From: Maylandia zebra
Taxonomy: Eukaryota; Chordata; Actinopteri; Cichliformes; Cichlidae
Reading direction: 5' to 3'
Assembly: GCF_041146795.1 (NCBI RefSeq)
Contig: NC_135184.1
Location: 9,414,967 to 9,478,966, forward strand
Length of the DNA: 64,000 nucleotides
A program made the position numbers and the translations under genes. Every line of letters begins with the position of its first letter. Position 1 is the stretch's first letter. Below the pieces are notes generated by a model, which saw nothing but the letters and a program-made list of their open reading frames with translations, was not told the origin of the DNA and did not search any database. This document shows positions 2,791-60,143 of the stretch, in pieces.

Positions 2791-5441
2791 ATCTGTCACA
2801 CATATTTATTGTAAAAAATACATATAAAAACAATTTGAGACATACAAAAGATCGGAGCTTAGAAACAGTATATTGAACAGACAAGGACCAAGCAATTTTC
2901 TTGAATTGTATTACATATTTACAATTTAATAAATAAAACTCAATTTGTTTGTTTTATACCAGAGTAAAGGCAGATTGTCCATATCTTGGGGCTGCAGATA
3001 CCGCTGTGGTGACATTTTAAACATCGGTCTGTAATCACAGGGCAGGCAGGGAAATGGCGCCCTGTGATTCGAAACCAAAGACTTGAGAATATTTATACAA
3101 AATACATCCTTGGTTGGAGAGGGGCTAGTTTGCACACAGAGCATTTAGCTAGCATTGGTAAAAATTTGAGGTATTGCACCGCACAGCTTAGAGGGGGTTA
3201 AGGAAGTAAATCAAGAGTAACGTGGCGGTTTTGGATTGTCTGTAATCTTTATTGACAACCCAACTGCCACCAACACCCCTCTGAACACACACACACACAC
3301 ACACACTCACACTCACACAAACACCCCCCCTTAAAACCCTCCCAGCCAAAGTATACAATATCATAACTTATCACCACGACAAATGTAATCTGAACATCTA
3401 AATGATCAATGCGCCTCCTCTTCTGCCCTGTCCCCCACAACAACACAGACCTAAATGCACAAACAAACTATTTTTGGCTTTATTTTTCTTTTCTCCAATA
3501 CAAAATAAGAGAAACATGCACAAGGCTGCCCTCTAATGACGGGACAGGTTATAGCACCGCAGACTGCAGAACATTGGGGTGGGGGGAGACAGAAAAGACC
3601 AACAGAGGCTGGGGTGAACAAACCTGTGAGCATGGCTCACCTCTTGGCCAACCTCTAAACCGCCCCACACCACTGCAGCGCTGAAAGGTAAACACCTTTA
3701 GAGCAGGCAGCAAAAGCAATCAGTTACAATATATTTTTTGTTCTTACTGCTAGAGTTTCCACTGGCCTACGTACGACCTGTATCAGGCAGCATCTGTTGA
3801 GCAGCCTTACTGTTTCGGCTTCCACTTCAGCTCAGCCCCCAAAAACGACACCACAAATACCTCTTTGCACAAGAACCCCTTCACCAGGCAAAAGGCAATC
3901 AACACACACACACACAAAAAGAAAGGCCAAGGATAGCCATTTAACACATTTAGCAACAAACATGAGCATTGTGATAATAAAATAGCCTAAATAAAAAAAA
4001 AAAAAAAACAAGGGGAATTGGGGGGGGGGGGGCTGCTTATGTAATAATTAACCATCAGCTGTCCGTAGCCTCCAGTGTTATGGATCGAGGCAGATACCAC
4101 ATGGTGTACACTTGCTCCAAAAATACATCTGTCCCTTTATCTCCCCTCGATCTGGCATTTGTGTAACCAGATGGCGAAACTGTTGCGTGGTCCAAAAGCA
4201 GAGAGAAAGAATCCAAATTACACCCCAGAGGACAGAGGAGGCAGGGGACAAAAACTCAAAACAGCTTTCAAAGTAGAAGTTTCGACCATGTGAGCCGCCA
4301 TGTTGCGTACCAAATACAACATTAAACAGGAAGGATGTTGAATGCAGTTAAGCCGGTTCACCAAGCAGACTTCTGGGCAATTTACAGTACACACACACAC
4401 ACACTTACAGTCGTGCTCAGGACATAGTCTGTCCCTGGTTGTTATCTAAACGTGCACACGCATACAAACAATCTTATCCTGGATCTTATGGTTTAAACTA
4501 AAACAAGCCTGAAGGACAAAAGTGCACAAGTTGGTGCAAACACCAGCGCTACTATGGCCCTATAAAATACCTACAAACCCTCCTCAACGCTCACCAAGTA
4601 GCAGCACATTAAACCCACCGCTATTCAACCACCTACAAGTCTGACCTACCAAAAAAAAAAAAAAAAAAAAAAGACTTATTTTTCCACTCCCCAAACAGTT
4701 AGGCCCCCAAACATCCCCTGAAATGTTTACATGTAACAGGAGAGGAAAAACAAAAAACAAAAAAACCCAACACCTAATGACGGCAGCCCCCACTCACCAA
4801 ATACAAGTCCTCAACCTCCAGCTCAATCAAAATAAAGCAATGTTTACATAGTAACAGTTTGCGCTTTCAGTGTGAGGTTGGTTCATTTATGGGGTGAGCC
4901 GAGAAAAGAAAACATTCATCCGATGTATGACATGGAACGATAATCGTTCTGTTTTGGATTTTGTCTTTTTTTTTGCAAAACACTTGATAAAATAAACAAT
5001 CCCGTTGGGAGGGAGAGAAAATACACAGGAGAGGATCCAGAGTCACAGTTAAGACCATTTTTTCTTTTCTTTTTTAGCCCCCCCCCCCTTCCCCCGCAGC
5101 CAGGTTTAAGTTCGTTCTAGGATGATAATATTTATACGTTCTGCAGTTTAAAGCCAAGTGCGCAGGATAGACGGATAAACGCTGTCGTTTCTGTTCCAAC
5201 CGGGAGGGGATGTCTCGACCACGGATTTTTGAACTGTCGGGAGGAGTTTGGCTTGAAATGGTCAAGCTCAAAAGGGAGCGATCCCAGCAGAGAGCATCAG
5301 GTGTCTTCACGTGCAGCTTCCTCTTAGGATCGTCTGTTCTCCGCTCATGTATTTGTAGTCTGTGTCCAAGAGTGACAGTGGGCTTTCGTTTGTTCAATTA
5401 CACATTTTTTATTGGGGATTTTTCGGATTCAGTGTAGTCTC
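2790..5441 (-). other. Putative 3' UTR exon of the ZNRF-like gene
   Basis: On the minus strand an acceptor (tctttttctgccctcacag) precedes 5441. A poly(A) signal AATAAA lies at 2810-2805, so the exon would be about 2.65 kb. It has no convincing reading frame; a 14-codon frame follows the acceptor and ends at TAA. It contains CA repeats (about 3287-3306), poly-A runs and homopolymer G/C tracts typical of fish UTRs. The extent is inferred from signals only. Confidence 0.55.
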
Positions 5442-8400
5442 CTGTGAGGGCAGAAAAAGACACGAAAGAAGAAGAAGAAGAAGAAGAAGAAGAAGAAAAA
5501 AAAAAGATTCATTAATACAGGCTGTGGGGACTGTGCTGAAAAACAGACTGCAGCAAAGACAGAAAAAATGTGAAAATTTATATCAATTCTATATCTTTTT
5601 TGTTGTTGTTTTTGGTGTTTTACAGAAACGATGTGGCCACAGGCAGAAGTTCTTTGTGCTGCCAGCATTTATTTTCTATTCAAACACTATTAAGTTCAGC
5701 ACTGACGCAAAAAACTTTGAGGGTGCAGTTTCTCCCAACCCCACGCACCCACTCACACACACAGTGTTTTGTGAACACTGAGAAATCCAGAAACATCCAT
5801 GTAGATGCTAAAAATGACAGCCTCAACATGGCATTTAATCTGTTAGACTCAATTGGCTTCTCTCAAACTGTAAAAGAACCCACCCACCACTTTAATCACA
5901 CTCTAGATCTTGTGTTAACATGTGGTATAGAAACTGAACATTTAACAATGTTTCCTGAAAACCCTCTCCTGTCTGATCATTTCCTGATAACATTTAAATT
6001 TACAATAATTGATTACACAGCAGTGGAGAGTAGACTTTATCACAGTAGATGTCTTTCAAAAAGTGCTGTAACTAAGTTTAAGAATATAATCCACCCACTG
6101 CTATCATCTTCAATGCCCTGTACCAACATAGAGCAGAGCAGCTATCTGAACGCTGCTCCAACAGAGGTCGATTATCTTGTTAATAATTTTACCTCCTCAC
6201 TACGTACGACTCTGGATACTGTAGCTCCTGTGAAAACTAAGGTCTCTAATCAGAAGTACCTGACTCCGTGGTATAATTCTCAAACACGTAGCCTAAAGCA
6301 GATGACTCGTAAGCTGGAGAGGAAATGGCGTGTCACAAATTTAGAGGATCATCATTTAGCCTGGAGAAATAGTTTGCTGCTTTATAAGAAAGCCCCCCAC
6401 AAAGCCAGAACATCTTACTATTCATCACTGATTGAAGAAAATAAGAACAACCCCAGGTTTCTCTTCAGCACTGTAGCCAGGCTGACAAACAGTCAGAGCT
6501 CTGTTGAGCCAACAATCCCTTTAACGTTAACTAGTAATGACTTCATGAACTTCTTCACAAATAAAATTTTAATCATTAGAGAAAAAATTACCAATAACCA
6601 TCCCACAGATGTAATATTATCTACAGCTACTCTTAGTACCATTGATGTTAAGTTAGTCTCTTTTTCTCCAATTGATCTTTCTGAGTTAACTTCTATAATT
6701 ACTTCCTCCAAACCATCAACGTGTCTTTTAGACCCCATTCCTACAAAACTGCTCAAAGAAGTCCTGCCATTAATTAATTCTTCGATCTTAAATATGATCA
6801 ACCTATCTCTAATAATCGGCTATGTACCACAGGCCTTCAAGGTGGCTGTAGTTAAACCTTTACTCAAAAAGCCATCTCTAGACCCAGCAGTCTTAGCTAA
6901 TTATAGGCCAATCTCCAACCTTCCTTTCATATCAAAAATCCTTGAAAGAGTAGTTGTCAAACAGCTAACAGATCATCTGCAGAGGAATGGCTTATTTGAA
7001 GAGTTTCAGTCAGGTTTCAGAGCTCATCACAGCACAGAAACAGCTTTAGTGAAGGTTACAAATGATCTTCTTATGGCCTCTGACAGTGGACTCATCTCTG
7101 TGCTTGTCCTGCTAGACCTTAGTGCAGCGTTCGATACCGTTGACCATAATATTCTTTTAGCACGATTAGAGCACGCTTTAGGTATTACAGGTACTGCGCT
7201 GCAGTGGTTTGTATCATATCTATCTAATAGACTCCAATTTGTTCATGTAAATGGAGAGTCCTCTTCACACACTGAGGTTAATTATGGAGTTCCACAGGGT
7301 TCAGTGCTAGGACCAATTCTGTTTACATTATACATGCTTCCCCTAGGCAGCATCATTAGAAGACATAGCATACATTTTCACTGCTATGCAGATGACACCC
7401 AGCTCTATCTATCTATGAAGCCAGATAACACACACCAATTAGTTAAACTGCAGGAATGTCTTAAAGACATAAAGACCTGGATGGCCGCTAACTTTCTGCT
7501 TCTTAATTCAGATCAAACTGAGGTTATTGTACTCGGCCCTGAAAAGCTTAGAAATATGGTATCTAACCAGATTCTTACTCTGGATGGCATTACCTTGGCC
7601 TCCAGTAACGCTGTGAGGAACCTTGGAGTTATTTTTGACCAAGACATGTCCTTCAATGCGCATATTTAACAAATATGTAAGATTGCTTTCTTCCATTTGC
7701 GCAACATCTCCAAAATTTGAAATATCCTGTCTCAGAGTGACGCTGAAAAGCTAGTTCATGCATTTATTACTTCCAGACTGGACTACTGTAATTCATTATT
7801 ATCAGGATGTCCTAAAAACTCCCTGAAAAGCCTTCAGCTAATCCAAAATGCTGCAGCAAGAGTACTGACAAGGACTAGAAAGAGAGAGCATATTTCTCCT
7901 GTTTTGGCTTCCCTTCATTGGCTTCCTGTTAAATCCAGAATTGAATTCAAAATCCTGCTCCTCACATACAATGTCTTAAATAATCAGGCCCCATCTTAGC
8001 TTAATGACCTTGTAGTACCATATCACCCCATTAGAGCACTTCGCTCTCGCACTGCAGGCCTATTGTTGTTCCTAGAGTATTTAAATGTTGAATGGGAGGG
8101 AGAGCCTTCAGTTTTCAGGCTCCTCTTCTGTGGAACCAGCTTCCAGCTTGGATTCGGGAGACAGACACTATCTCTACTTTCAAGATTAGGCTTAAAACTT
8201 TCCTTTTTGCTAAAGCATATAGTTAGGGCTGGACCAGGTGACCCTGAATCCTCCCTTAGTTATGCTGCAATAGATGTAGGCTGCTGGGGGATTCCCATGA
8301 TGCATTGAGTTTTTCCTTTCCAGTCACCTTTCTCACTCACTATGTGTTAATAGACCTCTCTGCATTGAATCATATCTGTTATTAATCTCTGACTCTTAGA

Positions 8401-11400: not shown

Positions 11401-13617
11401 GTTTTTAGTCCTGCGCTCTACTTTTAGTGATGCATAAAGGCCTGCCTTACTAAGGAGCAAAACAAATCCCACTCAAAACGCTACGTCCAGATGAACAGAA
11501 TCAACTTTTGGAGAACTAATTATGTTATCTGAAATTTTTTTAAAAGTTATAAAAAATACAGCAGGCTGGATCTTGAGTGATCGATTACCTAATCTTGGTA
11601 AATCGGCTGTACTGAGATTAAGGGGAAATCAGTGGCTTCTTGGAAGCTGGGCAAAAATCAAGTGATGAACATTACAGTTTGTTTTAAACTGTCAATGTGG
11701 GGTTTTTTTTGTTTTTTAAATAAATTGGCTGAAACATACAAAATACAGGATCACAGTAAAAAAAAAAAAAAAAAAATCTCCTAGAAATGTCATTAATTCC
11801 TTGGAAGTTACAAAAAAATAAAGCGTTGAACATTACAGCACGTTTTAAAAATGTCAAATGGGCTGAAACACATTATGAAAGTTGATAGTCATTTAGTTTT
11901 TTCCTAGAAATGTCATTGCCACTTAGAAAACACTGTGCTCACATCTGTCAAATTAAAATGCAATAATCCTGCATGTGTTTTCACAGTTGTTAAAGCTCTT
12001 ACTGAAAAAATATTTAAAGTCTTCCCTTTTTTTCTGTCACATATTTATAATGGAGGATGCTCTTATTAAACGTGGCCAAAGTTTAAATGAATTAAATACA
12101 TACAGCAGGAAATGAGCATAATAATAATGTGAACACATGTTTGGCTTTAATCCATTTTATCTCAAATTTCAAAACAAGGCTTCCCAATTCCATCACTTTA
12201 GCAAAGATTACAGAGTTGAGTCTGGCACATCCTATCTGGGACATGAGCAACCGATCTGTAATTCTCAGAAAAGTGTAGCTCTATATACGATACACACTAG
12301 TACAGAACAACTTTTGCATCCTTGTTTCAGATAGATGTCAGCTCTGGAAACCACCACATTTGCCCAGTGAGTTTACTTTTAATGTCACGTTTTGTCCCAA
12401 GCGAAGAAACAAGCTTATCTGCCCTACATTTTATTTTAATTTCATTCATACCTCTTGTGGTAGACACAGAGGCAGGCCAGTCTGGCGATGGTCTCTCCCT
12501 GTACCAAATCCTCCAAACAGATGGAACACTCTCCACTGTCTTTACTGAGCACATCCGCTGTAAATGCACAAACACACAAATCAACAATCAGGGTTTTTCC
12601 AGGCTAAAAATGGCCCTCTGGGGAATGGCAATGCATGTAACCAGTCCATATATAGCAAAGGCAATGAGTCTACAGAAGTCTGAATGTTCCTCTTATTATG
12701 TTCAGTTTGATGAAAAAAAGTTTTTTGACTTGATTATATTAAAGCCTACTTAAAAATAAAGTGTTGCTCATATTTTTGTCAGAGACTTTGTGATCTTCTC
12801 TTCTGGAAAGTTCAAAGGGCACTTTGATGAGTGCCAGAATGTGTTTTTTTTATGCATAGGAAAAAACCCTGACATTAAGTCACCAGCCTTTTAATAAACA
12901 CAGCTGTAGGAGTATTTTAGTGGCACGATACTTACTGTTGTAAGGTAGAGGAGGAGATGTGAGGCAACTCAACAGGTGATCCTCAATCCGACCCCCCGGG
13001 AAAGGCTTTGAGCAGAAAGGACAGCGGATATCTGTAGAGGGCACAGACACAACAGACCCAAGATTAACACTGTGTGTCACAGCACGATATAAATGATAGA
13101 TGATGCGCGCTGAGCACAAGTGCTGTGTTTGGACATCTAGGTTGCACAAGCTGAAACCGCAAACCAAAGAGCAGCCTGAAACACACATGCTAAATGAGGC
13201 GTTCCCATGCCTGAGATGGTGAGAAAGACGTTGCCCTGAGTGTAACTGACCTGAAATAACGTTATTTGACTGTACTCACTGCTCAAAACACTGACTCAGT
13301 CTTGAGGGATGGCCACTGCTCGAGCCATTCGTAGATAGGAGAGCCAGGCAGAAACAGTGCCTCGCTGCCCTACATTTGCCTCCTCCATCTATGATTCGCT
13401 GCCAGCAGTGAGCAGGCATGTGCAGTTGTGACCCATTTCCCTACACTTGCTAGAGGGCTGGCCTGGGAAATCCACCACACTGCTCTGTGTTGGCTCAAAA
13501 TGTCACGCTTGCCGTCACATCTCCACCATCTCTATTCATCTGATTATCTAATGCAGGCCGAGACAAGTGCAAAATTTTTTTTAGCTTCCTCTGCACACTA
13601 ATGTTCCAATTTTAATG

Positions 13618-31800: not shown

Positions 31801-34800
31801 ACAAAATAAAACCAGTACCGGTATCAAAAAAGGAAGATTTATTCATAACACACGGGAAAAGACCCAAGGAAACCGAGTTAACGATAAAAACGATTAAAAA
31901 AATAACCATAAAAACCCCGAAAACCATAGAGTTCACACCCGACCCTCAACTCGAACTTTGTTTCTTGATATTTTTATTTTGTTTCATTATCTTTTAAGCT
32001 GGTATTCAGAGCTCATATGGTCAAATATATTCTGGCCTAAATGTAAATTTATTGTTTCCACACACAGGCTGCTCTAGCTGAGGCCCTCAGGACTGGAGTT
32101 AAGTCCAGGAAAAACCTCGTCTGCAATGTAATCTCTTACTCTACAGCCGCCAGCCAATCAGCACACTCTGTGGAAAAACTCCTTCGGTGTCTTGTTAAGT
32201 GGCTGAGAAAGATAAAGGGCACAGAGGAGGAATCGCCTTTTCCTCACTCGTATAAGTAAGTAACTTTTTGGTCATGTAATCTGTTCCCTTACAGTGGTTT
32301 CCAGCTGTCTGTTTCATGACCGATTTTTTTTTTTTTTCCTTTTCTCAGAGATTTGCTGTCAGAGTTTCACTCCACATTAAGTAATATAAAGAGGAACAAA
32401 CCTCTGGTGCTGCTAGTTGATGGGGCAGATCTTGTCCAGGATGGCAGAGGTCAGGTCAGCTCTGATTGGATCCCACAGCAGCTTCCACGGGTCACCTGGG
32501 GAGAAAAGGTGCTTCATCACACATAAAAAAATAGCAAAGATTTGCAACTCGGATACATTTATTTCAAGGGACCTGCTGCAATTTTACTTATTATAAGTTC
32601 AGATACAGCCCATGTTAATCAAATAGATCCTTTTATCCTCTGGTGTGCACAACTTTTATTTTGCATTAAAATATTTGAAAGTTGATGACCTGCAAAAACG
32701 AAATCTTATGTGCAGGCGATAAACTCTCCATAATTTTTTCATCCCTGTCTTCATAAACTTTTTTTTATATGTGTAATGTGCAGGGCTGCTCATCCATTTA
32801 TTTACTTTCGTTACGGTATGTTTCAGTTTTAACTGCACTTAATCTCAAATAATCCTGGTCTTAACAGGGTGTCTGTTTGGTGGTGAGCATCACGTCTAAA
32901 GCAGCTCTGTTACAAACACTAACCAAGAAAAAAGGGACGCTCCTGTTTACGCTGGGACAGCTTACCTTGCCAGACCGAAAGGAGATTGTTCAGAAGGAAC
33001 TGGATGCATTTGGCAAGAAACTCAGCGACTGTGCTTTCAACAACCAGGTTCTTCTTATGATATCTTTGAATTCAAAACATTCTCTGGATGGTTAAATTTG
33101 TCTTTTATATCCATCTTTACACTATGTCATGCTTGTGTGTGTTTGTCCAGCTCCAGACACTAATATCCAAGAAGGGAGCAGTCAGTCCTCTTTACTTGCA
33201 CCTGGCTTGTGAAGACCTGAGGAATTTTGCTTCTTTTGACAAGGTTCAAACTCACTGCTTTAGCCCCCTTCTCTCTGGTATTTTAATTTATGTGACAATT
33301 TTAATCTAACACGTAACTACAATAAAGGTAATAAAGAAATGCTGAAATATTAATACAGTGTTTGGTGGAAGATTACTAAAATACTTGAATATTTATTTAA
33401 TTTTACATATAGGAACATGGAGGTGGGTAGAAAAGTAATTTAACCAGTAAATCGACACATTCACACTCAGCTCTCTCTTCCACAATAAACCAGTGCAGGA
33501 TCTGCTTGACTGCAAATGAACTGTTGTGCAAATTATTTTGCTTGGTATATATTTCCTCTAAACTTTAGACTTCATTGTCAGCCTCCATATCTGTTCCCAC
33601 ATTAAACGGTCTTCAACTTGCCGGCTCCTTATACCATGTGATGTCCAGTAGTCCATTAGAGTAACCAACTGCCAGGAGAATTTGTTGTTTACCTGTTTGC
33701 CCTTTATCCTGCCACCTCCTGTGTGCAGAGGTAGCTTCTTATGTACACACTAGTTGCATCCTATATTTAAGAAAAGGCATCTTTGTACATCATTGTCTGG
33801 AGTTCATGTGTGAAAGCGGCTTCTGTGTTTGCGTCCTAGCTGAAGGAGAGCCTGCAGGACTTGCCGCAGTCTCTGAGACAGCTGGTGCAGTACAGCCTGC
33901 AGAGACTCTGCTCACAGTACAGAGGCATGCTGGGACTCCGCTGGGCCCTGGCTACACTCACTGTCAGCACCACAGGTATGATTGATGTCCCAATATCATA
34001 TGTTAACTGCACATTTATTCTTGAATAAGAATAGATAGTAGGGGTGCAACAATACACAAAATTCACGGTTCGGTTTGGTTCGATACTTTGGTGTCACGGT
34101 TCGATATTTTTTCGATTAAAAAAAAAAAAACGTTCATGCCTTTTTAATTTGTCATTTATTAAATTTTCACGGCACATTCCGCACCACATCTCTGTGCGTT
34201 CATCATTTGTTTGAAGCCAGCTCACCTCCTGCAACTACTTTTCCGAGAATACGTGCTTCTTTTGTGGTTCGGACTCCTTCTGACATTTCTTTGGAGGTAG
34301 AGGAACATCACAGTAATTGCTTAAAGGAGCTTGCTTCTTCGACATCTTTAAGAGTTCTAAACAAATGTCTGTCCTCCTCCTGAAAATCTTATGTATGCAA
34401 ACACGCGTTGCAACTTCTTATCTTGTGCCCGTTTTTTTTATTTTGACAGCGAATGCGCACCTGCGGACCACTTATGTGCAGCCCTGGTTATTTCGCTTGT
34501 CATATTGCAGCCACAGAAATTATTTTGTCCATGAAACCATAAAGCTGCACTTTCTTTTTGCCTTACAGTCTGATTTGTCATAACTTTTCCGTTTTGTGGC
34601 AAGCTTTTCTTTGGCTGTCACTTCTTCACCCTGACCTGTCTTACTTGGCTCAGCAGAACTAAAATATTGTGGTGAGCTCAGACAACGAGGAGACGGAGGT
34701 ATCGTTTGGTCTTGCTTCCCGTGAGCTAGCCAGGGAGCACAGCCGTTTATTGACATCTGCAGAAGAACACTGCCGCTAGCTAACTGCTCAGCGCGGCAAC

Positions 34801-37800
34801 AGCACAGCAACAACAACACACAGGGCGCCCTCTGACCCCGGAAGAACACACCGTCGCAGCGAGAGGGCGTCACCCGTCACTATGGCAACATAAACAAAAC
34901 ATAACTGCACAAACAGAACCCCGAACAGCCCTGACCCGCTACATAGCCCCCACCTAAGGGGTCAGTCGTCCCCGACGACCCCATTACCCCACACAAAGTC
35001 CTGCAAATGTCCAGGTGCCTTCTTTTGGCACACCGGCCGGTCACGACCGGCGGGGGAAAAGTCACTCGGGTCAGAACATGGGGTGCCACCATCATCCCAC
35101 TTCTGACACCAATGTGGCGAGCTCAGACAACTAGGAGACGGAGGTATCGTTTGGTCTTGCTTCCCGTGAGCTAGCCAGGGATCACAGCCGTTTATTGACA
35201 TCTGCAGAAGAACACTGCCGCTAGCTAACTGCTCAGTGCGGCAACAGCACAGCAACAACAACAACAACACACAGGGCGCCCTCTGACCCCGGAAGGACAC
35301 ACCGTTGCAGCGAGAGGGCGTCACCCGTCACTATGGCAACATAAACAAAACATAACTGTACAAACAGAACCCCGAACAGCCCTGACCCGCTACAATATGT
35401 ATCCTGCTGCTTTTACACACGCACTCGCATAACGCTCAGCGATTCTCTGCGCGCGATCAACCTCTCACATGTTTAAGCTTGCTGCGGGAGATTTCACTTG
35501 TCATGTTTGCATAGTAAGCTAACAATTGATAAGACTATGTCAGAGGAATTGGTGCGCAAATTATCATCACTCACCAATCAGTGCTGTCGCTCTCTATACA
35601 CAGTTCGCAGGATTGCAAAGTGAAAGCAAAAAACAAGCGCAAATTCAAACGCGATTTCAATATGTCACATATTGACAGTGGCTCACCAATGCCAATGACA
35701 TAATTACCCAGCTACATTTCCGAAAGAATGCAAAACCATTGACATATATTTTTCCTTCCTACGATAGCCTGACGGGCAGGGCAGAGATAGATTTTGGTAG
35801 CCCGACTGGAAAAATCGGGATGTCGGCGATTTTGCGAACCCTGTATCTGATTGAGGAATCACTCATCTTTGGAAAAGAGTTTATTACAGAGAAATGGCTC
35901 TTTCCAAAATAAAAGCTATACTATACGCTTCTTCTGGGCTATATTCTCAGCAGCATATTAAACATATCAGGTCCCCATAAGAAGAATCATGTGCTAACGG
36001 CTGTCTAAATGACTCGGGTAAAGTTTGTAGCATGCCTGCTTGTTGTTTTTGTCTGCTTCCACTTGTCTTTGCACTAGGATGATGTCGGTGTAAATGTGCA
36101 GTCATATTTGTTGTGTTCCCACTAGTGCTGTCAGCGTAAATCTGGTTGAAATGACGTTAACGCCACAACACGGCAAATCTCCGTTAACGAGCTACCGCGG
36201 ATCGCCCATGCATGGGGCTGGACGGCCAACACCTTAACAAGCTAACTGCGCTAACACACTAGCTCCCACCCATGTAATTGAGCATTGCGTGGCACATCCA
36301 ACATACTGTTTTACTTTAGTCCATGACGCGCTTACCTTCAGGGTCATACCTCACATGAAAACCAAAATAGTTCCAAACGCCAAATCTGAATGAGGGTGGG
36401 GGAGGTTCAATTTGCCATGTTGCAAGGAGAGCTTAACTTCTGTCTCGCTAGCTTGCCCTGCGCTCAGTGAATCTGCTTTGGACTACTCCGCCTAGGCTGC
36501 ACTGTGGAGCGCAGATCCACTGAGCGCTCAACACAGACAGCATCGTCAGAAGGAAAGTTGATAAAATAAATATAAAATTTATTTTGTATTGTTCGATACA
36601 TATGGGTACCGAACCGAAAGCACTGTATCGAACGGTTCAATATCGATACGAGTATTGTTGCACCCCTACAGAGTACATACACGGTGTAAAATACAAATTA
36701 CTATCGTATCATCATGTTTTTACAACACCATAACTTTTACCTCCACTCATCAAAGTTAAATACCTCCACCTTTGGAAATTTAATTGTAAACTAAATATGA
36801 AGTAGTAACTTAGTAAACAGAGACATTCATTGAAATTCACCATTTTCCTCTTTCTATCTTATTAATCGCCTAATAACCTCTTTTTTTGAGGTCATTTATG
36901 TTTGGATACAGCGTCAACTCCACACTTAAACTGTTTCACAGGCTCTGTCCACACACAGAAACACAAATCTTTTCCTGGCTGTATACACATTGAATGCAGT
37001 GTACCTTTTATAGTTGTTGCCTCAGACTTTTGGAAAACACTTCAAATAAGATGAAACCTTATTTAAAAACTTGTTGCTGTTGTTGTTGTTTTTAATAATA
37101 ATAACTTTAATAAATCTCATCTTATATGTATAATAGCTCAATCAATGTTCATACACTCCTTCTAACCAGAAGTCTGATTTGAGGAGTGAGCGTAAACTAA
37201 AGTGACCTACTCTGCCTCAACGTTTCCTCCTTTTCATCCACAGGCCTGAAGGAGAGAGATTTATACTCTGTGTTGAACACATGCAATGATTTGTCTTTAC
37301 GGGATGGACAAGTCACATGGCAGGAAGTGCTGCAGTTGTCCAGAGAGCCCAAAGGACGCATTCCTATGGCAACCTTCACCCGCATAGTGCAGAGTTTACA
37401 AAGGTATAAGCCCAGAGCATATAAGCATATTATTTAAGTTTTATGACATATTACGTTGTGTTCATGGAAAAAGAGGCAGTGGTCTGTGTGGTTTCTTGAG
37501 ATTCCTTTAATAATTCATAATACTGTATTGTTATTATGTAATTATTTGCATTCTCTTTCTTTACAACTCAGATATTAATAAGAATAAACAATATCCTTTA
37601 TTTTCCCTTTTCTTCCCTTTAAGTTTTTGTCTCAGGTTTCGATCAGAGTGTGTTTAGAGTTTTAAGCCATATTACAAAGTTTTAAATAAGCATTACACTT
37701 GAATCTTTTCCTGCAGTCTGATTGGTCCATCTCATTGCCACAATACTGACGACCTGCTGGCTTTAACCAATCCGGAGGTGAAGCAAGCCTTTGAGGACTT

Positions 37801-40800: not shown

Positions 40801-42562
40801 GCTCTAGTCTGTCCCCCTGAGGGTGAAAGTGATGATTAAGTGATGATATGTTGTTAGTCATTTGTGCAGCTGCTTTGTTATGGTTTACAGCCTGACGCTG
40901 CACTGCCAGGTTTGACATCGTTCCTCGACTGTATTAATCAAACCTGTTTCTTCTCTTCAGGTGTGGTCTTCTGATAAAGGTACTGAAGTGTCCTCCGTGC
41001 TCAGCAGAAGCCCTATGAACTGTGTGACCTTTGACCCTAAGGGTCACCTTCTGGCTGCTGGCTGCTGGAATGGAAATGTGATCATGTGGAACTGGCTCAA
41101 GAATAAAAAACTAACAGTGAGCTCAATGCTGTGAATGTTGCAATGTTATTTCATTTTCACCATGAATGTATGTTAAAAATACATAATCAGTTCTACTAAA
41201 GATCTACAGGAGAAAAAAAATTGGACCATAAATATAACTGAAGTATGGAATATCGGAACCAATGAAAACATGTGTCTACAAAAGGGGGTGTGGTCTATTG
41301 AAACTGAGATATTTATTTTTAATTTCAGTTCTTTAGCAGAATAGGGCTTTTTTGAAAGTATTATTATTATCATTAATTATTATTATTATTATTATTATTA
41401 GAGAACAGCTGAAAGAAGAACTACTTCAGATAATGCACTCACTGTTTTTCTCTCTCTCCATCAGTCCCTGTGCGGCCACACACGATCAGTGCGCAGCCTC
41501 TCTTTTTCTCCCTACTCCTCCATGCTCTGCTCTGGCTCTGTGTCTGGGGAGGTGAGGGTGTGGTCAGTGCCCACCTCCACCTGTGTGGGATGTTTCCAGG
41601 CTCACTGTGAAGCCACAGAGTCCCTCACCTTCCTGGAGGAAGGATCCATGCTTCTGAGCGCTGGCTCTGATCACATGGTGAGACATCAGTCAGCACATAA
41701 TAAAGCTTCTGCTTTTCCCTTCAAATGTTGCTTATTTTAATAACCATTTGGTTTTGTATAAAATAACTTTTGGTTTAAAACGTCTTGATGCATTCTCAAT
41801 CATCCAGGTAAGTAAATCTCCGAACGTTGATTCTGTTCATCTGGATGTAGAGTTTTCAGAAAACTCTACGTCCAGATGAACAGAATCAACGTTCGGAGAT
41901 AGCCTTTTGTTGTTTTCTGATTTATCTGAGATGACTGATATGACACTGCTGTTTATTTTCTCAAAAACGACCTCAAAAAGCACCACCTCTGAAGCAGTCA
42001 TAGTGCAGTTATCAGGAGAAAGTCAGTGCAGGAACAGGCACCAGTATCTTCTCACAAACAAAGATTTCAGTGATTATAAAGCTAATCATCACCACCTCCC
42101 ATTTCTGTTTTTTCTGTTCAAACAGCTCAACCTCTGGTCTGGAGGACTTGGACGTTCTGTCACTGAATTAAAATGTGATGATGTAAGTTCTAATATTTTG
42201 CTGGACCCCTTTTAACTTTAATGATGCTGCACATTTACAAGGATCTTGTACTGATGATGTTAAGTGTTAAGGTGGGGCTCTATTGATGGAAAAACCTGTT
42301 CATTCATATATTCATGAATTTCAGCATCTTCATGTTCATGTTTTTTTTTTTCTTCTTCTTCTTCGTCAGTGGATGCAGGAACCACCTCTGAAAAAGCTAA
42401 AGGCTGTAACGTCTCAGCCTGCTGCTCTGTGTGTGGCTGTGAATGGAGACTATGTTGCTGTGGGATACCACGCTGATGGCATCAAACTTTTCAGCCTCAG
42501 ATCAGGTGTGTTGTGAGCTACGAATGTTTCAAAAATGTTTACCAGATGGAATCACTACAAGA

Positions 42563-45500: not shown

Positions 45501-48500
45501 GAGTGGTGCTTTGAAAATTTTCTCCCCTGTTTAGTGTCATTGGTGCTAAAATGTCTCACACCTGACTCCATATTGCACTGTTACCTCACAGTACAACAAG
45601 ATCAAATTCAACAGGGCAACTAAGGAAAAGCAACAGGTGGCATCACAAGATTTCATGTAAAAATTCTTTAGTCGTATGTACTGTATTCATGATAGTTAAA
45701 CTGTTTATGGTCAAGTCTTTCAATTTAAAAATAAAAAATAAAGAAACTTAGTCAAGAATTGCTGTACAGCTATATTGTAGAAAGGTTTTGTGGAAAAATT
45801 TGGCTCATTTAGTTAATAAACAGTGTATCGAAGAGGGTTGCTGTACATGTTTGGGTTGTTTTTGTTGTTGTTGTTTTTTGGGTGGGTGGGGTCTATGTGT
45901 TTGTTTGTTTTTAAACTAATTTTCTGTTTCTTTTTTTTTTTTTTTTGGAGCCTAAAGTGTCCACATTTGGCTAAGAAGATGGAGTGTTAATTTATCAGCT
46001 AAGGCTAGCAAGCTTGGAAGCAATGCACAGACACGCATATCTGATAATTACATCTAAGTAACATACAAGTGCTTTCAAAAATGTGTTTTTTGTTTTTGTT
46101 CCAGTTAAGCTCTTCAAATGACGGCAGACTTTGTTCGTGGGACCTTCAGGTTGGGCAGTGTCTGAGGGAAATCTCCTGGACAAGTCCACTTACCTCTGTC
46201 TGCTGTCTGGTGAGTCACTTATGCAGCTTTAAGTAAATAAGCTCTCTATATTGTGTACAATGTAAAGAACTGTTTAACTATAGCATGAAATTGTCTTTTT
46301 CTTTGGTTTGATAAATTATTTTCTTTGTTGACCTGCTCTGTCGTGCTTTCTGTGGGCAGGGACAATATGTGATAGCCAGCTGTGCAGAGGGGGCACTGCA
46401 TGTCTGGAAGTGGGAAACAAACACTGAAATCTGCCATATTTCTGCTCACATGAGACGCATACACCACTGCTCTCTCCTCCCAAATACAGGTACCTGAGAA
46501 AACATGCTGGGAAGTGATTACACACATAGTCTCCTCCTCTTTCCATCATTCAGTACGCTGTATTGAGTTAATACTGCATATTCTGAAATTAATATTTGAT
46601 ATTTCTAAGCCCACTCTTTGTTTTTAAGACAAAGGGAAGGAAGTGAAGTCAGAAGAAATGTCCGTTTTCACAGCGTCTGATGATGGCACAGTGAAATTTT
46701 GGAAACCCTTACAGGTCTCTCAAACAAATAAAAAAAAAAATCCTCTGAATTTTTAAAGTGCCCTGCTGCTTCTTCAGATGTATTTTCTCACTGACTAGAT
46801 ATGTCGGTTTATTTCCAGGTGGAGCACTTTAGCACCTTTCGCGGTCACAGCGGTGCGATTCATGGAGTCGTTTGCAAGGAAAGGGTCCCACAATTCTTCA
46901 CTGTTTCTGAAGACCGCTCGCTGCGATGCTGGACATGGGCAAGAGGTAAAAAAAAAAATTGGTTTAAATTGAGACTTTAATTTTTTTTACCATTTATATA
47001 AATGATACAAATCATAATTATCAACTCACAAGTGTCTACAAATCTGCTGGGAAGGCACCTAAAGAAAGCTCAGCAAAAACCCGTAGTGATCCCGTATGTG
47101 TCAGGAGTATTGGAACAGTTAAACACAGTGTCTCTGTGGCTTTTAAACCCCAACTCTCTGTGAATGGTACTCATGGCTATTGATCAGTGGTCTTTGATCA
47201 GTGGTTGTTGACCAATCGTCATGACAATTTGCATGATCAAGGAACCAATCTCCCAACCCATTGTTCCTTCAGTGGTGCTAGTTTCAGTCACTGTGCAAAT
47301 GTACTGTGTATAAGATTTGGGAAACCTGCAGTCAGCTGAGACTGAAGAAGTCACTTGGATGAGTGACGAAACGTTTCTCTCACTGAAAACGCTACGTCCA
47401 GATGAATAAAATCAACTTTTAGGGAGCTACAAATCTCTCATTTTTCTTATTTTAGTACCTGTTTGGCTTCAGCTTATGTTCCATAAATTGGCACAGTAAG
47501 CCAGTAGAAACATCTCAAATTTGAAAATGGATTTAACTCTCGTTATTTTATTTTTTTACTGTATTAAAAAGTCAATATTTATCATCTGCAATTAAGTAAT
47601 GAACATTTGAAAATTGGTTAACGACGCATTATTATGTGGCCTTTTGCAGCTGTAAGTGCTTATGAGTAATGATGTTTAAAATGCTCCCCTTTTGTGCACT
47701 GATAAGGAGGACGTTATATAGAGAGATGCAAAAAGAGAGGTATTATGTTAAATATTAATGTCTTTAATTATTTTTCCATGTTCCCATTAAATTTCTCACC
47801 AATATTGTGCAAAATTAGCTACTTAAAATGTCTTTAAAACTCCTTATAATTTTCATTTCCTTTCAAGAAAAACCCTTTTTATGTTTATGCACGTCTTCTT
47901 GTGTTAGAGCCCAGACTTCATTTCAGGAAATCTTGAACCAATTAGCTGCGATGTCCATCTCAGTCATTGTGTTCAAAATGGTGTGCCCACAATCCAGCAC
48001 ACAAATCTATGTACTTATAATGACTGCATTTAAAGTTTACGAGAGTGCATCATTTTGGTTTCAGATGCAATTGTCAATGTCAACAAATCAATGTGTCTTT
48101 ATGACTACAATATTCTTTTTTTATATTTAACAAAAAGCCTCAAAAAAACTTATTGTACCTTTTAAAACATAAATGAATGATGGTGAAAAAGATTGGGAGA
48201 TATGAGTATCAATTAGAATTTCTTCAGTGTTGAATTAATCAAAGAAGATTTGTTTTAAATCTAAAAATAAAATAAGTACTACTGAACACGTGCTGGGAGC
48301 TAAACTGGTGCCCTATGTAGCCTTATCTTTAAAGTAATTACAGTGTTATTAAGGGTCCTTATACACATTTTGTTATGAAAACTGTGTTTCTTCTTTTTTC
48401 CACAGCAAGTCCTCCAAACCTGAAAGGCTCGGTCACAGCTCTGTGCTTCTGTCAAAATGATGACCTGCTCCTCGCTGGGTATGAATCTGGTTTGCTCGAG

Positions 48501-53660: not shown

Positions 53661-54694
53661 AAAGTGAAATGTTTACCTAGCCACATTTGACCTACCTTTA
53701 ATTTAGATGGAGAAACTTGCAAACATGACAAGCAAGGTTAATAAAAAAAAAAAAAAGCTTCAAATGTTAGAAAGATCTCTTTAATTAAAAATTCAAGCAG
53801 AAGAAGAGAAAAATGTGTTTGTGTCTTTTTTAAATTCTTCCCATTGTGTTATTTTGGGTGTATTTTATTAAATATTTTTACATATTTTTCAAGTGTTTAC
53901 ATGATTTCCCCTTGACAGTTCTTCAAGCGTTAGATGACAGCAGATATTGGTTGTTTGTTTTGATTTTAATTACTCGTTATTTCAGTTGTTTTACCTATTT
54001 AAAAAAAACACATTTTATTTACTCACGTTTTAATGAAAGTTCTAGCAGAGACCCCTGGATATTTTTAATTAATGTTTGTACAGTGACTTCTTTTGACCTC
54101 CTTAAAGAGTCAGTATATAGAGGGATCAAAAGTGGTGTCGGTATTAATGATTTTCAACACAGACTATTCTTTTTGAAGGGATTTTCTCTAAATGTATCTA
54201 AGTTTTAAGTTTGGAAAAAACGCACCGTATTTAATGAGCTATATTTTGTGTAAATTTACACAAATTCTAAAACGCCAAACATTGTTTGAAGTAGCTTTAA
54301 ATGTCACATATTGATTAAGAAAAAGGTTAAAAGGTACAGTAAGCGTGCTTGCCACAGCTGATGATAGTATAATAGGTGCTTTTATTTTTAGTACACAGAC
54401 AATTTTTTACAATTATTTGAGAGACATTAACTTAAGTACTTAACCTGCTGATATCCTTCTAGTTGTATTTTTATACCCTAAGGCTGTAAAGGGAATTTCC
54501 GAACTGCTCTCGAATGCAGCAGAATCGGGTTGACCGCTCCCAGATGAGACGATTACTCACCTGGACCACGGGGTGAAGCGGACAACCTCCGCCAGTTTCA
54601 AGCGATAACCCAGATCTGGGGGAAGTATTCCCAACCAGTTTCTTTTTCCTTCTGTTTTGTAATTTTTTTTCCTACAAAGGAGGGAGAATCCTGA
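53661..54694. other. Intergenic DNA between tep1 and the foldback element
   Basis: AT-rich to about 54470, then a more GC-rich island (54480-54660) unlike its surroundings. On the minus strand that island contains a strong donor-like CAG|gtgagt (exon side ends near 54562). It may be the first exon of an unseen minus-strand transcript. No protein frame or known structural RNA could be matched. Confidence 0.45.
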
Positions 54695-55159
54695 ACTGGT
54701 GTCAAGCCAGCCTCCAATTCGAGACTTGCAGTCAAGCCAGCCTCCAGTTTGTTTTACGTTCCCTGTGTATTCAAAGTATTACGGGAATGGATGTGGAAAC
54801 CGGATTTCAAAATAAAAGCCAACTTCGAGTGAATTAACAGATATGTTAAGAACATAATAACATATAATTTAGGCTTTTTTTTTTACAAACTCTAATGTTA
54901 GATCTATATGACACAGCCTTGTACCCTAATTGTGCCCTGTCACTATCAAGGCCATCTTATTTTGGATTTCAAAGTAAAAGCCCTGTGAATCTTCATTTTT
55001 GAACTACTCTTTCAATGACTTAATAATGCTCTTAAAAGCAAAAGTCGTATTTCCAAATACTATTTGAACTTTATATCAACACTTTCCAACCACAGTCTTT
55101 TTACAGTGATACCATATCAATATCAAGTCAGTCTGATTTTGCCTTTCATAGTAATGGCC

Positions 55160-56868
55160 CTTTGAAATTGTCCATAATTGACTTAATCTTCTAACGATTC
55201 AAAATGCTCTAAAATGAAAAATTCTTGTTTCCACAGGGTAATTCCACCTTAGATCAACAGTATACAGCCCCACAGTGATACCATATCAATATCAAGTCAT
55301 TCTGATTATGCCTTCCAAAATAAAAGCCTTTTTAAATTGTCCATAATTGACCTAACTTTCAGTGATTTCAAAATGTTTTAAAATGGAAATTTCCTGTTTC
55401 CACAGGGTAATTCCACTCCAGATCAACAGTATACAACCTCACGATGTTACCATATCAATATCAAAACATTCTGATATTGCTTTAAAAAATAAAAGCATTT
55501 TCAAACTGCCCATATCTGAGTTGCTCCTGGAACAATTTCAAAATGCTCTAAAATGGCACATTCCTGTTTCCACAGGGTAATTCCACTTTAGATCAACAGT
55601 ATACAGCCCCACAGTGATACCATATCAATATCAAGTCATTCTGATTTTGCTCTCAAAAATAAAAGCCTTTTCAAATTGTCCATAATTGACCTAACTTTCA
55701 GTGATTTCAAAATGCTCTAAAAAGGAAAATTCCTGTTTCCACAGGGTAATTCCACCTTAGATCAACAGTATACAGCCCCACAGTGATACCATATCAATAT
55801 CAAGTCATTCTGATTATGCCTTCCAAAATAAAAGACTTTTCAAATTGTCCATAATTGACCTAACTTTCAGTGATTTCAAAATGCTCTAAAATGGAAATTT
55901 CCTGTTTCCACAGGGTAATTCCACTTTAGATCAACAGTATACAGCCCCACAGTGATACCATATCAATGTCAAGTCATTCTGATTTTGCCTTCCAAAGTAA
56001 AAGCCTTTTCAAATTGTCCACAATTGACCTAACTTTCAGTGATTTCAAAATGCTCTAAAATGGAAATTTCCTGTTTCCACAGGGTAATTCCACTTTAGAT
56101 CAACAGTATACAGCCCCACAGTGATACCATATCAATGTCAAGTCATTCTGATTTTGCCTTCCAAAGTAAAAGCCTTTTCAAATTGTCCACAATTGACCTA
56201 ACTTTCAGTGATTTCAAAATGCTCTAAAATGGAAAATTCCTGTTTCCACAGGGTAATTCCACCTTAGATCAACAGTATACAGCCCCACAGTGATACCATA
56301 TCAATATCAAGTCATTCTGATTATGCCTTCCAAAATAAATGCCCTTTCAAATTGAGCATATACGGCCTACTTTTTTGACGATTTCAAAATGTTCTTAAAC
56401 AGAATTTTGCTGTTTCCACAGGATAATTTCACTTTAGTTCAACAGTATACAACCTCACGATGTTACCATATCAATATCAAGTCATTCTGATTTTGCTTTC
56501 AAAAATAAAAGCATTTTCAAACTGCCCATATCTGACTTGATCCTGGAACAATTTCAAAATGCTCTAAAATGGAAATTTCCTGTTTCCACAGGGTAATTCC
56601 ACTTTAGATCAACAGTATACAGCCCCACAGTGATACCATATTAATATCAAGTCATTCTGATTTTGCCTTCCAAAGTAAAAGCCTTTTCAAATTGTCCACA
56701 ATTGACCTAACTTTCAGTGATTTCAAAATGCTCTAAAATGGAAATTTCCTGTTTCCACAGGATAATTCTACTCCAGATCAACAGTATACAGCCCCACAGT
56801 GATACCATATTAATATCAAGTCATTCTGATTTTGCCTTCCAAAGTAAAAGCCTTTTCAAATTGTCCAC
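55160..56868 (+). repeat. Left-arm tandem array, ~170-bp unit
   Basis: The landmark tgtttccacaggg(t/a)aatt recurs near 55230, 55398, 55566, 55734, 55902, 56072, 56242, 56411, 56581 and 56751. Each is followed by gatcaacagtatacagcccc and tgataccatatcaatat. Linkers differ between units (types described in the findings). Non-coding. Confidence 0.92.
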
Positions 56869-57065
56869 AAAGATGTCATTCTAAATAAAGAAATTACAAA
56901 ACAGCTTGCAAACCAACCATGACATCTTTCCACAGACTTAAAATATAAACGTACTATCAATTACAACCTAGTGGCAATTTCAGCTTCCTTTTACATCATC
57001 TTTATGATTCAATTCTGTCATAATCAATTGAGTCTGATTTTGCTTTTCAAAATGAAAACCCAATA
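56869..57065. other. Core of the foldback element
   Basis: About 150 bp of non-repeat sequence. It includes a small hairpin candidate: aaagatgtcat near 56868 against atgacatcttt near 56922, loop about 45 nt. A partial left-oriented unit follows up to the orientation switch. Confidence 0.7.
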
Positions 57066-59460
57066 TGTGTTGAAACAGCAATTTTCATTTTTAAAACATT
57101 CTGAAATAATTGAAAGAGTATATCACATATGGACAAATTCGACGGGCCATTAATTTGAAAGGCAAAATCAGACCAACATGAAATTTACATGGTTTTACTG
57201 TCGGGTTGGATACTGTTGATCTAAAGTGGAATTATCCTGTGGAAACAGCATCTTTCAATTTAAGAGCATTTTGAAATCGTTAAACAAGTAGGTCGTCTAC
57301 GGGCAATTTGAAAATACTTTTATTTTGGAAGGCAAAATCAGAGTGACTTGATCTTAACATCGTATCTCTGTGGGGTTGTATACTGTTGATTTAAAGTGAA
57401 ATTATTCTGTGGAAACAGAAAATTTCCTTTTTAGAGCATTCCGAAATCACTGAAAGTTAGGTAAGTTATTGGCATTTTCAACAGGCCATTATTTTGGAAG
57501 GCAAAATCAGAATGACTTGAAATTGAAGTAGTACCATGGTGTGGATGTACACTTTTGATCTAACATGGATTCATCCTGTGGAAAGAGCAAGTTTCATTTT
57601 TAGAGCGTTCTGAATTCTTTAAAAGAGTAGGTCGTATATCGGCAATTTGAAAAGTCTTTTATTTTGGAAGGCAACATCAGACTGATTTGATATTGATATG
57701 GTATCACTGTGGGGTTGGATACTATTGATCTAAAGTGGAATTATGCTGTGGAAACAGCAATTTTCCATCTTAGAGCATTTTGAATTCGCTCCAAGAGTAA
57801 GTCATATATGGGCAAATTGAAAAAGCTTTTATTTTGAAAAGCAAAATCAGACTGACTTGAAATTGACATGGTAACATCGTGAGGTTGTATACTGTTGATC
57901 TAAAGTGGAATTACCCTGTGGAAACTGAAATCTTCCTTTTTAGAGCATTCTGAAATCACTGAAAGTTAGATCAATTATGGGCATTTTCAACAGGCCATTA
58001 TTTTGGAAGGCATAATCAGAATTACTTGAAATTGATATGGTAACATCGTGAGGTTGTATACTGTTGACCTAAAGTGAAATTATCCTGTGGAAACAGCAAT
58101 TTTCACTTTTAGAGCATTTTGAAATCTTTAAAAGAGTAGGTCGTATCTTGGCAATTTGAAAAGTCTTTTATTTTGGAAGGCATAATCAGAATGACTTGAT
58201 ATTAATATGGTATCACTGTGGGGCTGTATACTGTTGATCTGGAGTGGAATTATCCTGTGGAAACAGGAAATTTCCATTTTAGAGCATTTTGAAATCACTG
58301 AAAGTTAGGTCAATTGTGGACAATTTGAAAAGGCTTTTACTTTGGAAGGCAAAATCAGAATGACTTGATATTAATATGGTATCACTGTGGGGCTGTATAC
58401 TGTTGATCTAAAGTGGAATTACCCTGTGGAAACAGGAAATTTCCATTTTAGAGCATTTTGAAATTGTTCCAGGATCAAGTCAGATATGGGCATTTTGAAA
58501 ATGCTTTTATTTTTGAAAGCAAAATCAGAATGACTTGATATTGATGTGGTAACATCGTGAGGTTGTATACTGTTGACCTAAAGTGAAATTATCCTGTGGA
58601 AACAGCAATTTTCACTTTTAGAGCATTTTGAAATCTTTAAAAGAGTAGGTCGTATCTTGGCAATTTGAAAAGTCTTTTATTTTGGAAGGCATAATCAGAA
58701 TGACTTGATATTGATATGGTAACATCGTGAGGTTGTATACTGTTGACCTAAAGTGGAATTATCCTGTGGAAACAGCAAAATTCTTTTTAAGAACATTTTG
58801 AAATCGTTAAAAAAGTAGGTCGTATATATGCTCAATTTGAAAGGGCATTTATTTTGGAAGGCATAATCAGAATGACTTGATATTGATATGGTATCACTGT
58901 GGGGCTGTATACTGTTGATCTAAGGTGGAATTACCCTGTGGAAACAGGAATTTTCCATTTTAGAGCATTTTGAAATTGTTCCAGGATCAAGTCAGATATG
59001 GGCAGTTTGAAAATGCTTTTATTTTTGAAAGCAAAATCAGAATGACTTGATATTGATATGGTATCACTGTGGGGCTGTATACTGTTGATCTAAGGTGGAA
59101 TTACCCTGTGGAAACAGGAATTTTCCATTTTAGAGCATTTTGAAATCACTGAAAGTTAGGTCAATTGTGGACAATTTGAAAAGGCTTTTACTTTGGAAGG
59201 CAAAATCAGAATGACTTGACATTGATATGGTATCACTGTGGGGCTGTATACTGTTGATCTAAGGTGGAATTACCCTGTGGAAACAAGAATTTTTCATTTT
59301 AGAGCATTTTGAATCGTTAGAAGATTAAGTCAATTATGGACAATTTCAAAGGGCCATTACTATGAAAGGCAAAATCAGACTGACTTGATATTGATATGGT
59401 ATCACTGTAAAAAGACTGTGGTTGGAAAGTGTTGATATAAAGTTCAAATAGTATTTGGAA
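57066..59460 (-). repeat. Right-arm tandem array, ~170-bp unit, inverted
   Basis: The complementary landmark (aatt)a(c/t)cctgtggaaaca recurs about thirteen times between 57230 and 59290, in opposite orientation to the left arm. The inner units are more diverged than the outer ones. Confidence 0.92.
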
Positions 59461-59825
59461 ATACGACTTTTGCTTTTAAGAGCATTATTAAGTCATTGAA
59501 AGAGTAGTTCAAAAATGAAGATTCACAGGGCTTTTACTTTGAAATCCAAAATAAGATGGCCTTGATGGTGACAGGGCACAATTAGGGTACAAGGCTGTGT
59601 CATATAGATCTAACATTAGAGTTTGTAAAAAAAAAAAAAAAAAAAGCCTAAATTATATGTTATTATGTTCTTAACATATCTGTTAATTCACTCGAAGTTG
59701 GCTTTTATTTTGAAATCCGGTTTCCACATCCATTCCCGTAATACTTTGAATACACAGGGAACGTAAAACAAACTGGAGGCTGGCTTGACTGCAAGTCTCG
59801 AATTGGAGGCTGGCTTGACACCAGT

Positions 59826-60143
59826 AATCCAGACCTGCGCAGCTCGCTGAGTGAAAACAACCGACAGTATCAACAAGCAGAGGACACAAAGTCCTTCTGA
59901 GGAGCGGGACTTTTATATTTATATCCGTTAACCTCTGACAACAAACGGGACAAGTTCACCTAAGGGAGACAGCAGTTCCCTGTAATTGTACGTTAATGGT
60001 ACGGTGGCCGTTACACGTCTCGCCCTTTATGGTGAACGCCTTTATAAAAATAGCGTTGATACAGTAAATATGTAACCTGTCTGTTACAGGAGCGGTACGG
60101 TAACCTTGATTTGGACCTGGAGTGTGACGGAGGAGCTGTCTCT
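59826..60143 (+). other. Putative promoter and 5' UTR exon of the next gene
   Basis: A more GC-rich stretch ends in a donor (GTCTCT|GTGAGT, exon end 60143). It lies immediately beside the foldback element and upstream of four plus-strand exons with matching phase. Start site and exon length cannot be read. Confidence 0.45.

Follow-up and report, generated by a model that had tools for sequence, protein, structure and literature searches.

A satellite-armed foldback transposon family in the cichlid Maylandia zebra, probably moved by a Mutator-like transposase

We analysed a 64,000-bp stretch of the Maylandia zebra genome (NC_135184.1, positions 9,414,967 to 9,478,966; hereafter the window, on the contig designated C18) and examined a foldback element of 5,131 bp at window positions 54695-59825. 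Our analysis confirms that this element is mobile DNA and a member of a transposon family, not a local satellite inversion, because its 18-bp terminus recurs 986 times in the 962 Mb of genome searched and its relatives carry 8-bp target duplications copy by copy. The segment is probably a non-autonomous foldback DNA transposon, moved by a Mutator-like (MULE/IS256-fold) transposase that rarer relatives supply.

Results

Structure and borders of the window element

As originally predicted, the element consists of two inverted arms of ~170-bp tandem units around a small core of ~200 bp, with nearly identical outer ~600 bp, as shown by arm alignment and by Tandem Repeats Finder. Long inverted tandem-repeat arms with a short core between them are the structural signature of a foldback element. 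The inverted repeat is exactly bordered: it starts at 54695 with ACTGGTGTCAAGCC, and the reverse complement ends at 59825. Alignment of the outer arms (~606 bp) over 615 columns revealed two substitutions, one near 54944 and the other at the inner edge of the aligned part, plus a 9-bp difference in an A-run. Tandem Repeats Finder gave periods of 169/339 at 55103-56867 and of 170/339 at 57068-59408; with degenerate units included, the left arm has 12 recognisable units and the right arm 15.

Thirty matches to a 14-bp unit motif (at most three mismatches) lie within the element, versus one or two in each of five base shuffles, and the motif can be followed out to 113 bp from each element end, with one step absent in the series. 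The array thus extends beyond its first description, and almost all of the arm seems, judging from this motif, to derive from one unit. The octamers directly abutting the element ends, AATCCTGA on the left and AATCCAGA on the right, match at 7 of 8 positions. Consistent with the predicted lack of a transposase, the stop-to-stop frames that overlap the element are all 90 codons or shorter. A search for element-like sequence in the rest of the window returned just A/T runs and short matches of 27 bp or less.

A genome-wide family with 8-bp target duplications

Searching the genome with a 301-bp terminal query yielded at least 42 matches (40 of 128 candidates scored). The 18-bp terminus ACTKGTGTCAAGCCAGCC, allowing up to two mismatches, gave 986 occurrences versus 15 for a backward-read control pattern, so the further copies with the same ends that the original prediction had proposed to look for do exist. 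Among the matches listed, sorted by mismatches, 99 termini are exact, and neighbouring exact termini facing each other within 35 kb form 31 pairs, 1.5 to 31.6 kb long. We read the flanks of 32 end pairs, namely these 31 and L019, whose right end has one mismatch. The two 8-bp flanks are identical in 17 pairs and match at 7 positions in five, at 6 in four, and at 5 or fewer in six. When the left octamer was compared with the right octamers of other copies as a control, 7 matches were reached in 3 of 992 comparisons. The best duplication length was 8 bp in 14 of the first 15 copies and 5 bp in the remaining one (L015). The 8-bp target duplication predicted from the window octamers is thus a property of the family, and a spread of copies that share their ends and carry target duplications is what the foldback class displays. 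The 17 exact octamers showed no clear target-site consensus; their last base is C in 10, with orientation uncorrected.

Two of the six poor-octamer pairs, on C9 and C15, do not represent single insertions: in each, the flanks are mutually reverse-complementary, over 739 bp and 442 bp, respectively, and the inverted flank plus end is 98.8% identical over 1,040 bp on C9 and 99.8% over 940 bp on C15. These inverted duplicates of end and flank (C9:2709260-2740851, L073-L076; C15:75575-80341, L010, L077 and L078) are possible foldback-mediated inverted duplications, or assembly errors.

The copies vary internally. Across 15 copies, one side has 3 to 14 units per arm and the other 5 to 19, and the core lies one way in six of eight testable copies and the other way in two. 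Three copies (L024, L029 and L031) consist of one arm and the core, the second arm being absent within the 10 kb read; their match to other cores breaks off close to the centre of the palindrome, after some 240-247 bp, and they are either broken hairpins or assembly gaps. The right end of L020-L021 (C6:44831346-44849950) is split at base ~302 by a ~14-kb array with a period of about 1.5 kb. A ~2.2-kb sequence, 96% identical at its two places, sits within the left arm of L011 (about 756-3085) and directly beside L032 (about 4098-6300), and is probably another mobile element. We also rejected the possibility that the inner cores of L010 and L032 derive from a coding parent: the extra ~450 bp look by eye like diverged repeat and have stops in all six frames. 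Exact pattern scans for ends or units in viral contigs and prokaryote genome contigs gave 0 matches.

Divergence and age

Within a copy, the ends diverge by 0.84% on average over their outer 240 bp (15 copies); between copies, the figure is 0.93% (765 pairs). The corresponding means over the outer 600 bp are 1.5% and 2.6%, raised by L032 and by L011 with its interrupted left arm. Older copies are present as well, such as L036, which is 78.6% identical over the outer 140 bp. The original prediction had attributed the similar ends to recent movement or to arm-to-arm gene conversion. Recent movement of the family is supported, since the outer 240 bp differ by only about 0.9% between copies. Conversion, by comparison, is not needed: the window copy shows a difference of 0.17% between its own ends over the outer 600 bp, yet 23% of the comparisons made with ends of other copies give a smaller difference, and those ends are roughly as similar, so this likeness alone does not demonstrate it.

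Gene-bearing copies encode a Mutator-type enzyme

We sampled the midpoints of five of the longer copies, on C1, C4, C11, C18 and C25. Those on C4, C11 and C18 (7-8 kb) show arms and core only at their midpoints. The copies on C1 and C25 contain coding sequence and provide the longer, transposase-encoding relatives that the original prediction had suggested seeking. An 18-kb candidate at C6:44831646 was discarded, its inside being an array of about 1.5-kb period.

The C1 copy is 14.4 kb long, with ends of the T and G types (defined below by base 4), and has a 371-codon open frame beside its right arm. Its right-arm units are 72-86% identical to those of the window element, its left end matches over 82 bp, and 7 bases are repeated in its flanks. 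The C25 copy, 17.9 kb long with two G ends, has unit arms, a 7/8 octamer and a left end with 99.3% identity across 153 bp, and it matches the teleost proteins P0094 and P0106 across their DDE, Ulp1 and PHD parts. Over 2,020 bp the C1 and C25 genes share 93% identity, and the flanks of the two sites differ. Neither gene copy looks intact, as the C1 gene is shortened and the frame of C25 shifts twice inside its DDE part. A further sequence, P0001 (310 aa), is 95% identical.

Relatives of the enzyme adopt the Mutator/IS256-type fold, that is, an IS256-like RNase-H fold DDE transposase as in the MULE superfamily, and in fold comparison IS256 was a better fit than Hermes or the P enzyme. The Pfam MULE domain PF10551 was not detected in the 371-aa frame and is weak in 3 of 34 relatives (best E 0.0045). 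As for the N-terminal WRKY/FLYWCH-type zinc domain of the superfamily, WRKY18 was matched with probabilities of 1.00 and 0.99 but at an E of about 0.3. A PHD finger scores above the Pfam cut-off in P0110 and below it in P0106; the C25 copy has a match to the PHD part of the latter. Related leech proteins share 35% identity with the fish enzyme, and a fish relative, P0098, carries the source-given name NOF-FB. The 8-bp duplication also lies within the 8-11 bp range of MULE/Mutator (IS256) elements (PMC6446971).

These results do not favour the hAT- or P-type helper that had been proposed, as the gene-bearing copies encode a Mutator/IS256-type enzyme; the P and hAT genes of the genome at large were not searched. 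Neither a THAP nor a P domain was detected by Pfam in the 371-aa frame or the scanned relatives, which covers the C1 and C25 copies, and no hAT transposase was found between family ends in the copies examined. In viral contigs, 0 of 32 pattern matches to the transposase were confirmed. A precomputed macro domain (PF01661) is present in five enzyme relatives from Oreochromis, Astatotilapia and other fish (P0139, P0140, P0158, P0167 and P0171), together with a PHD finger in four of these; they represent another domain layout or a domesticated gene.

One base distinguishes the two ends in most usable pairs

Base 4 of the 99 exact ends among the matches listed is G in 50 and T in 49. The 31 exact pairs comprise 25 G/T, five G/G and one T/T, a result reached by 42 of 100,000 permutations. 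Removing the inverted duplications on C9 (G/G) and C15 (T/T) leaves 29 usable pairs, of which 25 are G/T, four are G/G (the window copy and the C25 copy included) and none is T/T. Across 37 outer arms with 29 variable columns, base 4 alone separates the end types, the lowest other p being 0.105. As 27 of the 28 other variable columns lie beyond column 500, this column test is weakened as an argument against inheritance from a master copy.

We tentatively raise an enzyme pairing rule, a rather doubtful reading, by which a productive copy would need one ACTG and one ACTT end, giving polarity to a near-perfect palindrome. The plain alternative is one mutation in a master copy that was passed to its descendants, in favour of which six of eight testable copies share the core orientation relative to the G end. 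The pattern of end polarity is present; selection for it is not demonstrated.

Discussion

Comparison with known foldback systems

FB-NOF of Drosophila has foldback tandem-repeat arms, a Mutator-related gene in some copies, and a 9-bp target duplication in FB. The fish family resembles it in its arms and in having such a gene in some copies, and a fish relative of the enzyme, P0098, bears the NOF-FB name. Rehavkus, a MULE-related group (Rehavkus-1_TC of Tribolium; Rehavkus-1_HR), has a satellite unit in its inverted termini, as the fish element does (PMC10218199); its transposase bears a PHD finger and its hosts include annelids (PMC6446971), and leech proteins are among the relatives of the fish enzyme. 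Its duplications, however, are 9 bp, and the same survey lists it from arthropods and annelids only (PMC6446971). Owing to the 8-bp duplication, we term the fish family Rehavkus-like rather than Rehavkus.

Tetris of Drosophila virilis is likewise a non-autonomous foldback, with ~220-bp arm units, no conserved frames, and 8-9 bp duplications in three copies (PMC4079207), but its host and sequence are different. Tm1 of root-knot nematodes (Mutator/Foldback) shares foldback-like composite ends and non-autonomous kin, and some of its copies have a Mutator-type (Phantom) transposase; it differs in its mostly 9-bp duplications, shorter length and other inner modules (PMC3169594). Galileo of Drosophila also has long tandem-repeat arms, some repeats being bound by the THAP domain of its enzyme (PMC3688188), whereas that enzyme belongs to the P superfamily and duplicates 7 bp (PMC3573991). 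The original prediction knew of no well-described teleost family of this kind. We too found no described vertebrate or teleost foldback family of this type in the portions of the literature searched, although MuLE-NOF is reported as an automated repeat label in the Orestias pupfish (PMC11184842).

Proposed mechanism and alternatives

We propose that a transposase encoded by the rarer 14-18 kb relatives with the same ends acts in trans: it would bind the terminal inverted repeats, cut the element out (cut-and-paste) and insert it through an 8-bp staggered cut. Subterminal sequence was probably duplicated in tandem to give the ~170-bp units, which may serve as additional enzyme-binding sites, on the model of Galileo (PMC3688188). 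Unequal exchange would alter unit number, and exchange between the inverted arms would sometimes flip the core. We infer that this enzyme moved the window copy, and any present activity of the family would be inferred likewise.

That a P-superfamily (Galileo-like) or hAT enzyme moves the family, with the Mutator-type genes as chance captures between its ends, appears unlikely. The 8-bp duplications would fit such an enzyme too, being the length found in the fish elements Pdre2 and Izanagi (PMC10983969, PMC2820524), and arms of this kind are served by a P-type enzyme in Galileo (PMC3688188). Yet arms enclose the same Mutator-type gene at two independent sites, the fold comparison favours IS256 over Hermes and the P enzyme, and the family ends (ACTKGTGTCAAGCC) start with ACTG or ACTT, compared with CATACC... 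in Pdre2 and CAATGA... in Izanagi. We regard as very unlikely a nested insertion, in which an unrelated Mutator-like element jumped into foldback copies whose true helper is a different enzyme. Other insertions in or beside copies, such as the C6 array and the ~2.2-kb sequence at L011 and L032, make such an event conceivable, but here the gene recurs between arms at two sites with different flanks, an enzyme relative bears the NOF-FB name, and in Rehavkus a transposase with a PHD finger goes together with inverted ends that contain a 164-bp satellite unit (PMC10218199, PMC6446971).

A local satellite inversion or a palindrome assembly artefact is the least credible reading, and extremely improbable: same-ended copies lie on many contigs, each with its own 8-bp duplication. 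It draws on the difficulty of assembling inverted repeats, on a palindrome known here from the assembly alone, on the several copies that seem to be without a second arm, and on the two places that are inverted duplications.

Features of the element and of the rest of the window

The features of the element are collected in Table 1. Elsewhere in the window, a 709-codon open frame at 5540-7669 looks by eye like a LINE reverse transcriptase. A tandem duplication at 34668-34943 and 35113-35394, with a spacing of about 445-451 bp, is 97% identical in two stretches. A dispersed repeat at 2505-2626, 11467-11514, 41852-41899 and 47304-47425, with a common 48-bp stretch at 77-94% identity, is probably another mobile element.

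Table 1 Features of the foldback element, in window coordinates
Feature	Position	Strand	Basis
Left 8-bp target duplication AATCCTGA	54687..54694	.	7/8 match to right octamer; family-wide 8-bp rule
Left arm outer part, terminal inverted repeat, ends in ACTGG	54695..55300	+	Right-arm alignment; genome-wide copies
Terminal 16-bp direct repeat GTCAAGCCAGCCTCCA	54701-54716 and 54731-54746 (54701..54746)	+	Pattern scan, 0 mismatches
Outermost unit-motif copy TCAAAATAAAAGCC, 113 bp from end	54807..54820	+	Motif scan vs shuffled control
Left array, ~170-bp units, 12 recognised (first, last degenerate or cut)	54926..56866	+	Tandem Repeats Finder; unit recognition
Core between arms, common to other copies, in some partly palindromic	56867..57067	.	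Comparison with copies
Right array, ~170-bp units, 15 recognised	57068..59585	-	Tandem Repeats Finder; unit recognition
Right arm outer part, terminal inverted repeat, minus strand ends in ACTGG	59211..59825	-	Arm alignment
Terminal 16-bp direct repeat, right	59774-59789 and 59804-59819 (59774..59819)	-	Pattern scan, 0 mismatches
Right 8-bp target duplication AATCCAGA	59826..59833	.	7/8 match to left octamer

Implications

A 2019 survey of Mutator elements gives limited evidence for them in chordates and poses their true absence from vertebrate genomes as an open question (PMC6446971). Here, a fish genome holds a family of hundreds of ends with young copies, exact borders, target duplications and a gene whose relatives have the Mutator/IS256-type fold. 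Through it, foldbacks with satellite arms in insects and annelids would be linked to a vertebrate family. The one-base end polarity bears on how near-symmetric elements distinguish their two ends, and the long arms may give rise to inversions, inverted duplications and satellites in fish genomes.
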